From Acidobacteriota bacterium (GTDB taxonomy: Bacteria > Acidobacteriota > Vicinamibacteria > Vicinamibacterales > CAVVIG01): 64,000 bases of DNA. The stretch spans positions 124,001 to 188,000 of the forward strand of contig QHWB01000062.1 in assembly GCA_003222395.1 (NCBI GenBank), given 5' to 3'. A program made the translations under genes and the position numbers. Within the stretch, counting starts at the first letter, position 1; every line of letters begins with the position of its first letter. Under the pieces are notes generated by a model. It saw nothing but the letters and a program-made list of their open reading frames with translations, was not told where the DNA came from and did not search any database. Below, piece after piece: positions 3,406 to 5,731 of the stretch.

Positions 3406-3421
3406 CGCGCAGGAGATGAAC

Positions 3422-3994
3422 ATGGCGGTGAATTGGAGCAAAGACGTGGATCAGGCATTCGCCGCCGCGAAGGAGCGGGATCGCGCTGTCCTGCTCGATT
3501 TCAGTGCGGCGCCGGCTTGAGGCGCTTGCGCTCGGCTGGAAGCCGAGTCGTACGCCGACCAGAAAACAGCCGACTTCATCCACGGGCATTTCGTGCCCGT
3601 CGAAGCTCACATCAAGGAACATCCCGCATGGTTCCACCGATTTGAAGCGGTCTGGACGCCGACTGTCCTGCTCTTCGACAGCGACGGGAAGGAGCGCAGC
3701 CGTCTCGAAGGGTATCTGACAAATACCGATTTCATGGCTGCCCTGACGAGTGGCCTCGGGCGGATCGCGTTCGTGCACAAGAAATACGCCGATGCGGAGC
3801 GCTGGTACGACGACGTGGTGACGCGCTTTGGCCAATCCCATTCCGCACCTGGCGCGATGTACTGGCGGGCGGTGACGCGTTACAGCGCGACCCACGACCA
3901 CACCGTTCTCAGCAAAGTCGCCGAGGAACTCAGGACGACCTACCCTTCCAGTGTGTGGGCCAGCAAAGCGATCCCGTGGTTGTCCAAGGGATAG
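3422..3994 (+). CDS. Thioredoxin-like protein with in-frame TGA in a UxxC motif; candidate selenoprotein
   Basis: Reading through a single TGA at 3518-3520 gives one continuous 190-residue protein. The start at 3422 has AGGAG at 6 nt spacing. The first 32 codons read NWSKDVDQAFAAAKERDR then VLLDFSAAPA, the standard N-terminal beta-alpha-beta of a thioredoxin fold, and the TGA falls where the first active-site cysteine belongs: (TGA)-Gly-Ala-Cys. The same frame continues with ARLEAESYAD, a cis-proline segment (VWTPTVLLFD) and a C-terminal helical, TPR-like tail (ADAERWYDDVV, MYWRAVTRY) with no second disruption before the natural TAG. A 7 bp hairpin at 3531-3547 sits at SECIS distance from the TGA. 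Selenocysteine insertion is the most economical reading. The alternative is a Cys-to-stop point mutation in a dying gene, but the remaining frame shows no decay. The gene is placed between a DUF4159 gene and a convergent amidohydrolase gene. Confidence 0.65.
3521..3556 (+). promoter_or_regulatory. Candidate bacterial SECIS element
   Basis: Immediately after the TGA, CTCGGCT (3531-3537) pairs perfectly with AGCCGAG (3541-3547) around a GGA loop. GGCG right behind the TGA (3521-3524) can pair with CGCC (3553-3556) as a lower stem, leaving an internal loop. The apical loop starts 17 nt after the TGA and has G in its first two positions; published descriptions of bacterial SECIS elements give a TGA-to-loop distance of about 16-37 nt and a G near the loop start. 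The hairpin lies inside coding sequence, so codon use alone could produce part of the pairing. Confidence 0.5.
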
Positions 3995-4057: not shown

Positions 4058-5731
4058 TCAGTTCGCGGCTCGCGACCGCCGGTAGCCCGGGCCGTACAGC
4101 GCGCGTCCGGCGTGCGCGCCGGTGTGGCGGCCGGCGTCGACCGTCACCGTGCCGTTCACGATCACCGTCTCGATGCCGACCGGATACTGCTGCGGCTTCT
4201 CGAACGTCGCCGTATCGGCGACGGTCTTCGGATCGAAGACGACCAGGTCGGCAAAGAAACCTTCCCTGACCGTGCCTCGATCCGCGATCTTCATCTGCGA
4301 CGCGGCGAGGCTCGTCATCTTGCGAATCGCCTCCGGCAGTGCCAGCACGTGTTCGTCGCGGACGTAGCGTCCGAGAATCCGCGGGAACGTCCCGTACGAA
4401 CGCGGGTGCGGCTGGCCGCTGCCAAGCGGACCGTCGGGGCGGCGCGCGTCCGAATCGGTGCCGACGCTGACCCACGGATAGCGCATCGCGGTCTTCACAT
4501 CGTCTTCCGACATCATGTGAAAGAGGGCGGCGACGCGTCCATCGTTCTCGATCAGGATCGAGAACAGCGTGTCCCAGTTCTCCTGGTGACGCTCGGCGGC
4601 AATCTGCGAGAGCCGCTTGCCGACAATGGACTGGTCTTTGTCGGGCGGCACCGACGCGATCTGAATGCCGTCGAACGTGGCGCCGGCCAGCAGGTTCTCG
4701 ACCTCGGTGTTGGCCTCGACGTCGCGGCGCATCTTCGCACGCTCGGCGGGATTCTTCAGGCGCTCGAGCATCTTCTCGCGCCCGCCCTCCTGCGCCCAGC
4801 CTGGAAGCGTCGCCGGCAGGTTGGTGCCGCCGGCGGTGTATGGGTATTGGCACGCGCTCACGTTCACACCGCGCGCCCGGGCCTCCTCGATCTCGGCGCG
4901 GATCTCGTCCATGTGGCCCCAGTTCGCTTTCGCGCCGATCTTCAGGTGATAGATGACGACCGGCAGCCCCGCCTGCCGTCCGATGTCGATCGCTTCGCCG
5001 ATGGCGTCCTTCACGCGAAAGCTCTCGCCGCGCACGTGTGAGATGTAGACGCCGCCGTACTTCGACGCGACGCGGGCGAGCGCGACGAGCTCGTCGGTGT
5101 GCGTGTAGGAGGCGGGCGGATAAATCAGAGCGGTCGCGAAACCGAAGGCGCCCTGCTGCATCGCGCGGTCGAGGATCTCCTGCTCGCGCTGCAGTTCCTC
5201 CGGCGTGGGCGTACGGTTCTGCATGCCGAGGACCTGCTCGCGGATCGCCGCGACCGGCGCGAACGACCCGAGGTTGATCGACGTCCCGCGATTCTGCAAC
5301 GTGTGCAGGTAGCCGTCGAATCCGGTCCAGTCGTACTGCAGGTGATATCTGTCGAGAGCCACCCGGTCGGCCGTGTCGCGGGTCCACAGCGCCGGCGTGC
5401 TGCCTTCGCCGATGATTTCCGTCGTGATGCCCTGGCGGATGTGGCTCTCGCCGTTGGCGTCCACGAGGAGCGTGACGCCCGACTGCCCCTGCACGTCGAT
5501 GAATCCCGGCGCCACGACGTGGCCGGTGGCGTCGATCGTCCGCCGCGCGCGACCGGACGCCGCGCCGACCGCGACGATGCGGTCGCCCCTGACCGCGACG
5601 TCGGCGCGGCGGGCCGGGGCGCCGGTCCCGTCGATGAGGTCGCCGTTCTTGATCACGAGATCGAATTGAGGCGCGCAGGCGGCGGTCGCAAGCAGAGAGA
5701 CGCCGACTACGGACGCGAATCTGAGATGCAT
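4058..5731 (-). CDS. N-acyl-D-amino-acid deacylase (D-aminoacylase) family amidohydrolase, exported
   Basis: 557 residues. The N-terminus (MHLRFASVVGVSLLATAAC) looks like a lipoprotein signal with a weak lipobox. The amidohydrolase body follows: FDLVIKNGDLIDGTGAPARRADVAVRGDRIVAVG, then APGFIDVQGQS, where the usual metal-binding His-x-His is replaced by Gln-Gly-Gln. Further conserved parts are GVYISHVRGE, LPVVIYHLKIG, the SVGTDSDARRPDGPLG segment with the late aspartate, and the C-terminal MTSLAASQMKIADRGTVREGFFADLVVFDP. These enzymes release D-amino acids from N-acyl derivatives; here the likely place of action is the periplasm. The QxQ variant could alter metal binding. The gene is convergent with the thioredoxin-like gene. 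Confidence 0.8.
   Translation of the reverse strand: MHLRFASVVGVSLLATAACAPQFDLVIKNGDLIDGTGAPARRADVAVRGDRIVAVGAASGRARRTIDATGHVVAPGFIDVQGQSGVTLLVDANGESHIRQGITTEIIGEGSTPALWTRDTADRVALDRYHLQYDWTGFDGYLHTLQNRGTSINLGSFAPVAAIREQVLGMQNRTPTPEELQREQEILDRAMQQGAFGFATALIYPPASYTHTDELVALARVASKYGGVYISHVRGESFRVKDAIGEAIDIGRQAGLPVVIYHLKIGAKANWGHMDEIRAEIEEARARGVNVSACQYPYTAGGTNLPATLPGWAQEGGREKMLERLKNPAERAKMRRDVEANTEVENLLAGATFDGIQIASVPPDKDQSIVGKRLSQIAAERHQENWDTLFSILIENDGRVAALFHMMSEDDVKTAMRYPWVSVGTDSDARRPDGPLGSGQPHPRSYGTFPRILGRYVRDEHVLALPEAIRKMTSLAASQMKIADRGTVREGFFADLVVFDPKTVADTATFEKPQQYPVGIETVIVNGTVTVDAGRHTGAHAGRALYGPGYRRSRAAN

Follow-up and report, generated by a model that had tools for sequence, protein, structure and literature searches.

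Nucleotides 3422..3994 on the forward strand of the window (the whole 64,000-nucleotide stretch of acidobacterial DNA analysed here) very probably form a genuine selenoprotein gene, in which the UGA at codon 33 would be read as selenocysteine (Sec). The evidence consists of a conserved TGA, the genes of the Sec machinery, a conserved hairpin sequence, and a confident fold prediction. In the mechanism that we propose, SelB and Sec-tRNA-Sec would bind an mRNA hairpin starting 10 nt past the UGA, selenocysteine would be delivered at codon 33, and the product would be a 190-residue thioredoxin-fold oxidoreductase with a U-x-x-C motif and a TPR-like tail. A first-pass annotation of the same DNA had listed the gene as a candidate selenoprotein, a proposal now supported by the machinery, by conservation of the site, by exchange of Sec and Cys among homologs, by the hairpin, and by purifying selection.

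Reading frame and conservation of the in-frame TGA

The coding sequence runs from an ATG at 3422 to a TAG at 3992-3994 and specifies 190 amino acids plus the stop. A Shine-Dalgarno-like AGGAG (3411..3415, forward strand) lies 6 nt before the ATG, its role being read by eye. Re-reading of the frame bore out what the first-pass annotation had described: there is exactly one in-frame TGA in the 190 codons, at codon 33 (3518..3520), and the frame past it stays intact for 157 codons up to the TAG. Within the motif APA-U-GAC-ARLEAE, the TGA also occupies the position assigned to it earlier, that of the first redox cysteine of a CxxC motif (U-G-A-C). The partner residue C36, encoded by TGC at 3527..3529, is invariant in an alignment of 29 members (A1). 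GC content by codon position was 0.72/0.47/0.72 before the TGA and 0.60/0.48/0.76 after it; given that these values are similar on both sides, the coding signal appears to run across the TGA. The genome that carries the gene comprises 7.74 Mb in 118 contigs, with an estimated completeness of 99.26%.

We read 52 homologous loci, the window included. Of these, 47 carry TGA at the site, two carry TGC (Cys), and three (L047, L048, and L150) are fragments without the site. Outside the window, homologs thus show TGA in 46 loci and Cys in two at the column where the first-pass annotation had suggested that they be compared. In 44 of the TGA loci, the matched stretch shows no other break, and the remaining three (L045, L046, and L147) are frameshifted or cut later. 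Both Cys forms, L106 in genome G357 and L149 in genome G464, are distant; L149 reads LPTCVGC and matches over 3-186 of 188 positions (E 2.6e-50). Loci found twice at one place in separate searches were counted once, and L135 (G440), which does not differ from L040 in the 3334 bases compared, was set aside from the 52. Plain-CxxC thioredoxins (L069, L074, and L110) and the longer type represented by L073 and L076 were excluded as members. Every one of the 29 rows of A1 shows TGA in column 33 and Cys in column 36; compared with the window protein, the other rows are 27-71% identical.

The searches behind this set differ in reach. Against 60 genomes (its own and those of relatives), the window protein found two full-length relatives outside its genome, each 45% identical and each with TGA. 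A scan of a contig collection with the same protein, which detects close relatives only, returned 10 loci, all titled as Acidobacteriota taxa. Profile A1, searched within one phylum, matched 27 genomes of a 396-genome phylum sample at E <= 1e-25, 25 of them with one TGA; the two matches lacking it were the Cys form L106 (G357) and L110, a shorter CxxC thioredoxin. Within the class of G083, the profile matched 20 of 162 genomes, with TGA in 18.

The first-pass annotation had held that scattered frameshifts and stops among close relatives would refute the selenoprotein reading. This concern applies in part: 44 TGA copies and two Cys copies are unbroken, and 6/52 loci are frameshifted, truncated, or partial, so that in some relatives the gene decays or is misassembled. 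Several of the broken or partial copies (L045, L046, L047, L048, L147, and L150) come from metagenome assemblies.

Comparison of the window gene with L039 gave a dN/dS of 0.07 before the TGA and of 0.11 over the 145 codons past the hairpin. Past the hairpin, the values were 0.16 to 0.24 against L041, L042, and L049 and 0.40 against L050; with L040 and L043, dS was saturated and the ratio was not computable. For the pairs L059/L060, L055/L058, L055/L061, and L041/L042, dN/dS was 0.13-0.21. These ratios indicate that purifying selection persists downstream of the TGA.

A SECIS-like hairpin next to the TGA

Ten nucleotides after the TGA begins a core SECIS-like hairpin, CUCGGC-UGGAA-GCCGAG (3531..3547, forward strand), which has 7 pairs if U-A closes a GGA loop; counted as an uninterrupted stem against the bSECIS model, it has 8 pairs. 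An extended fold of the region (3521..3556), with a lower stem GGCG/CGCC, has a predicted energy of -22.5 kcal/mol and a z-score of -2.93, and 1/200 shuffles was as stable. In the core branch of the family, CUCGGC-UGGAA-GCCGAG is preserved nearly letter for letter; the predicted lower stem varies among members.

The bSECIS model, as given in the legend to Fig. 2A of PMC13188914, has an apical loop of 3-9 nt and a stem of 4-16 bp, a G among the first two nucleotides of the loop (mostly N1-G-[G/U]-N-N2), a UGA-to-loop distance of 16-37 nt, and a free energy of <= -7.5 kcal/mol. The window hairpin falls within the loop, stem, G-position, spacing, and energy ranges of that legend: the UGA lies 16 nt from UGGAA or 17 nt from GGA, N1-N2 is U-A, and the stem by itself has an energy of -11.8 kcal/mol. 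Across members, the uninterrupted stem by itself is weaker than -7.5 kcal/mol in 7/37. Hairpin energy as the sole evidence was rejected: counting TGA triplets on both strands and in any frame of the window, 157/1680 are accompanied by a bSECIS-shaped hairpin of <= -7.5 kcal/mol, with the target in 30th place. Because the hairpin by itself is weak evidence, we placed the weight on its conservation.

Synonymous sites provide a measure of that conservation. In 22 core sequences (near-duplicates L058 and L060 and five distant rows omitted), the excess of synonymous identity at codons +4, +5, +6, and +8 after the TGA lies above all 144 background codon columns; codon +9 was matched or exceeded by 1/144 columns and codon +7 by 12/144. 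The dominant codons are GCT at +4 (18 of the 22 sequences), CGG at +5 (22), CTG at +6 (21), and GCC at +8 (21), and the best 7-codon window for synonymous constraint across the gene begins at +4. Codon conservation of this degree at the hairpin is not demanded by the protein alone.

Evidence from paired changes is thinner. In alignment A3 (31 rows, 30 distinct), the stem is paired in 95.7% of cells, and four cells are changed on both sides, with C-G replaced by U-A in two rows and G-C by A-U in two rows; two of the double changes stand in L140 and L141, which are sisters in the tree, giving about three events. Among 500 shuffles of A3, none equalled the observed values for cells paired, both-side changes, or score, 13 did so for pairs, and all 500 for pair types. 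The smaller alignment A2 (23 rows, 22 distinct) showed no clear pairing excess, 46/500 shuffles reaching every observed measure. A3 is A2 minus L052 plus nine rows (L136-L142, L144, and L147); L058 is outside both, and L045 and L046 are in no pair count. Compensatory covariation is thin, and most stem pairs are nearly invariant. The loop in the 31 rows of A3 reads UGGAA, UGGAG, or UGGAU.

Other branches of the family carry other hairpins. Four loci (A4: L052, L143, L145, and L146) have a different sequence, with the stem in a shifted register and one double change (131/500 shuffles). The eight rows of distant branches in A5 read GGAUGC-CGUGAC-GUAUCC or GGAUGCG-GUYU-CGUAUCC and are paired in 48/48 cells, with one A-U to G-C double change; 75/500 shuffles equalled this alignment, which has few rows, for cells paired and score. 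The stem of L108, outside A5, reads GGAUGC/GCAUCC by eye. The UGA-to-loop distance is 18 nt in the L052 group and 23-24 nt in the distant branches, so that within one protein family, and at the same UGA, the spacing of the hairpin differs by branch (L064-L067, L071, L107-L109, and L148 versus the core).

Selenocysteine machinery and rival readings of the UGA

Genes for selA, selB, selC (tRNA-Sec), and selD, which the first-pass annotation had named as the machinery to look for, are all present in the genome of the window, each over its curated cut-off: tRNA-Sec at 62.5 bits (gathering score 47; called SeC(tca) by ARAGORN), SelB at 313.8 bits (cut-off 242.25), SelA at 542.1 bits (cut-off 267.9), and SelD at 344.1 bits (cut-off 125). 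The tRNA-Sec search is insufficient alone, because a tRNA-Ser of the same genome (L002, 50.4 bits) also passes the gathering score, as do matches in 5/14 control genomes. For the protein models, the controls over the cut-off were 2/14 for selB, 1/14 for selA, and 2/14 for selD. In the selD gene (L113, G000:C26:9514-10446), too, a single TGA interrupts the frame (ACAG-U-ASK), and a strong hairpin, CUCGCC-GCA-GGCGAG, comes after it; SelD of this genome is thus itself a predicted selenoprotein, and its gene would be a second one in the genome needing UGA readthrough.

In the 396-genome sample, selB was found at E <= 1e-60 in 25/25 TGA-bearing genomes and in 256/396 genomes overall (hypergeometric probability 1.2e-5, relatedness ignored). 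Among 15 further TGA-bearing genomes, selB was over the cut-off in 14, for a total of 39/40; the exception, G511, is 83% complete and yielded no selB score above the cut-off. The tally covers genomes other than those from which L039 and L041-L044 come. As for the two genomes with the Cys form, selB is over the cut-off in G464 and not in G357.

Other readings of the UGA can be weighed against these observations. TGT and TGC are one base apart from TGA, and the gene is evidently lost at times, being absent in full length from all 26 other genomes of the same family and frameshifted or truncated in some copies elsewhere; a nonsense mutation or a sequencing error in a thioredoxin-like gene, leaving a pseudogene, is nonetheless barely credible, given that 46 further loci among the 52 share the identical TGA and that purifying selection, synonymous constraint, and a hairpin are seen downstream of it. 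It is also very improbable that a near-cognate or suppressor tRNA inserts a different residue (Trp or Cys) at the UGA, or that two separate peptides are made from the frame. The frame would be open whatever residue stood at position 33, and a GTG start at 3593 yields a 133-aa ORF, but that downstream ORF would have no active site and only half a thioredoxin fold. Furthermore, UGA is an ordinary stop here, ending 10/17 picked ORFs of the window, including the upstream neighbour, and it also terminates many members' own genes. Among five scanned tRNA loci, the one with a TCA anticodon is the tRNA-SeC, and the presence of selB in nearly all TGA-bearing genomes, together with a hairpin of SECIS geometry, likewise argues against another residue.

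Protein fold, family, and origin

AlphaFold2, applied to A1 with Cys in place of Sec, placed five helices after a thioredoxin fold (mean pLDDT 96.6, pTM 0.91). This model, together with matches of the tail to the TIGR02795 (YbgF) profile in 18/29 members and to TIGR03302 (BamD) in 16/29, agrees with the thioredoxin head and TPR-like tail read in the first-pass annotation. The thioredoxin-fold domain covers residues ~1-107 (3422..3742). It matches PF13098 in the window protein at 43.5 bits (gathering score 27; E-value, 4.5e-11), with the match stopping at residue 108, and PF03190 and PF13899 are likewise over their gathering scores. For model residues 1-110, the nearest solved fold is the DsbD C-terminal domain (1vrs_E; Z 13.9, rmsd 1.7, 106 residues aligned), and DsbH (Z 13.5) and thioredoxins are further structural neighbours. 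The sequence WTPT (3653..3664) stands at the cis-proline loop position of thioredoxin folds, and its P80 is invariant in A1. The helical tail (residues 101-182; 3722..3967) comprises the five model helices and shows partial structural likeness to 5efr (Z 12.9) and to 2xev (Z 12.5, at an rmsd of 5.6). No hydrophobic stretch occurs in the N-terminal MAVNWSKDVDQAF of the window protein, and there is no evident signal peptide; the protein is thus probably cytosolic.

The architecture appears to be new among described selenoproteins. When the window protein and five other members were scanned singly, no NCBIfam 20.0 cut-off was reached; judging from E-values, of which the best was 3.6e-16 (to TsoB), the 28 other rows of A1 would also fall below the NCBIfam cut-offs. 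Table 1 of a 2026 review (PMC13188914), with 119 families or subfamilies, has no entry combining a thioredoxin domain and a TPR tail, in keeping with the earlier remark that this was not known there as an established selenoprotein family. No such family is named in the available portions of PMC9312934, PMC12013277, PMC1794560, and PMC5029168, and in literature searches we recognised no other report describing a thioredoxin plus TPR-like UxxC selenoprotein family. The families of Haft and Tolstoy (2025) were judged through Table 1 of PMC13188914 and the NCBIfam models only. The window protein and its relatives are therefore apparently a new family within the thioredoxin-fold UxxC selenoproteins, the nearest listed entry having been compared by its description.

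That entry, the nearest by domain in Table 1 of PMC13188914, is the PF13098 UxxC selenoprotein (representative WP_011366075.1), which shares the Thioredoxin_2 domain and U as the first residue of UxxC; it is tabulated by domain and motif only and was compared on these alone. We consider it unlikely that the window gene belongs to an already listed family, for example with the PF13098 thiol:disulfide interchange protein UxxC as an umbrella. The PF13098 match and the existence of that entry favour such a placement, but the window protein reaches no NCBIfam cut-off, its tail lies outside the PF13098 match, and the 10 loci of the contig collection, in a scan that sees close relatives only, are all Acidobacteriota by title. 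The VPGUxxT family (NF041382/NF041383) is likewise thioredoxin-like with U in the active-site region; 25/29 members match NF041383 at E <= 1e-5, and the distant member L067 has VPGU. However, that family is UxxT by name, whereas the present one is UxxC, and the window protein aligns with NF041383 over residues 3-61 only, at 30.1 bits against a cut-off of 275. The thioredoxin half is matched best, by profile and by structure, by the DsbD C-terminal domain and TsoB (NF001419 and NF045694); DsbD and TsoB are membrane and fusion proteins, and their models span 574 and 572 positions versus the 190 aa of the window protein, which scores 38.5 bits with NF001419 (cut-off 330) and 31.7 with NF045694 (cut-off 805). 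Trx7/PDZ (NF041199) resembles the window family in having a thioredoxin-7-like domain and Sec, but its motif is CxxU (PMC13188914, Table 1), and the window protein scores 14.6 bits against a cut-off of 300.

CnoX/YbbN superposes poorly with the window protein overall (Foldseek E 9.4e-6, rmsd 16.6) and is not among the 50 structural matches listed in a second comparison, an absence that carries no weight. In CnoX, a single chain carries a thioredoxin domain and then TPR-type helices; its tail is larger than that of the window protein, and CnoX is not known to be a selenoprotein. A chaperedoxin-like function, in which the TPR-like tail would hold unfolding clients while U33 and C36 kept their thiols reduced, would accord with a thioredoxin domain and TPR-like helices in a single cytosolic-looking chain and with the Foldseek match to Escherichia coli YbbN (3qou), and a combination of chaperone and redox functions is described for CnoX (PMC6282202). 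We regard this function as doubtful here: agreement of the domain arrangement is not apparent in the YbbN alignment (query TM 0.43), the thioredoxin domain is closer to DsbD-C and DsbH, and the tail is short. Plain reductase chemistry, running in the reducing direction, is somewhat more likely than not. In that chemistry, the U33 selenolate would most likely attack a client disulfide or other oxidised sulfur, and C36 would resolve the selenenylsulfide; the attacking and resolving roles are assumed from familiar thioredoxin-fold chemistry. That the tail docks the client protein is a more tentative suggestion.

The distribution of the gene suggests how it reached this genome. The tree groups the window protein with L039 (support 100/99; 72% identity); the record of L039 is titled Acidobacteriales, such titles being a loose taxonomy. 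Two relatives from the order of the window's genome are only 45% identical, and a full-length relative was found in 0/26 other genomes of the same family. For the downstream neighbour (4061-5731, reverse strand), the seven top matches outside its genome (53-60% identity) all fall within its own order, and the next is at <= 50%; with the nearest kin of this neighbour in that order, the contig can be assigned to it. We conclude that the selenoprotein gene was probably acquired horizontally; less likely, one of two old copies was lost repeatedly.

The gene seems to stand alone in its neighbourhood. Clustering of ORFs of >= 90 aa across 26 loci (20 fetched stretches, five loci of the contig collection, and the window) gave, besides the target and ORFs overlapping it, only two clusters of three loci each. 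One is an adjoining gene shared by the closely related G214, G178, and G245, and the other is a kinase-like gene that lies ~5 kb off in two loci (L116 and L117) and at the edge of the third, L120. With only these two clusters, a conserved gene context that would name a pathway was rejected.

Among the excluded loci, L076 (G340:C8, ~1501-1842) encodes a longer thioredoxin plus TPR protein with a signal-like N terminus and a TGA in FFSGG-U-GGC, and it is a candidate for another selenoprotein; its 400 scanned residues reached no NCBIfam cut-off. One-TGA matches similar in kind occur in G425, G385, and G332, the motif having been read in L076 only.

Taken jointly, the observations would fit a rather speculative picture: an undescribed family spread across many Acidobacteriota families, whose Sec-armed small cytosolic chaperedoxin might rescue oxidised clients bound to its tail, whose SECIS element has shifted along the coding sequence (loops at 16-18 versus 23-24 nt) while the UGA stayed fixed, and whose gene may move between classes that already own the Sec machinery. 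Gene callers that treat UGA as a stop cut such genes, as in the ORF list of the window, which shows 133 aa from an internal GTG; since, in addition, no NCBIfam cut-off was reached, the family is likely to be missed by ordinary annotation. The literature, as far as its available portions go, counts few selenoproteins in this phylum, with three families in Acidobacteria (PMC1794560, from 2006) and three known selenoprotein genes in one strain (PMC12013277), yet selB is present in 256/396 of the sampled phylum genomes. The thioredoxin-plus-TPR-like architecture would be an addition to the selenoproteome, and the family, with its SECIS elements at differing distances from the same UGA, would allow the rules that govern spacing in SelB decoding to be tested on naturally occurring variants.
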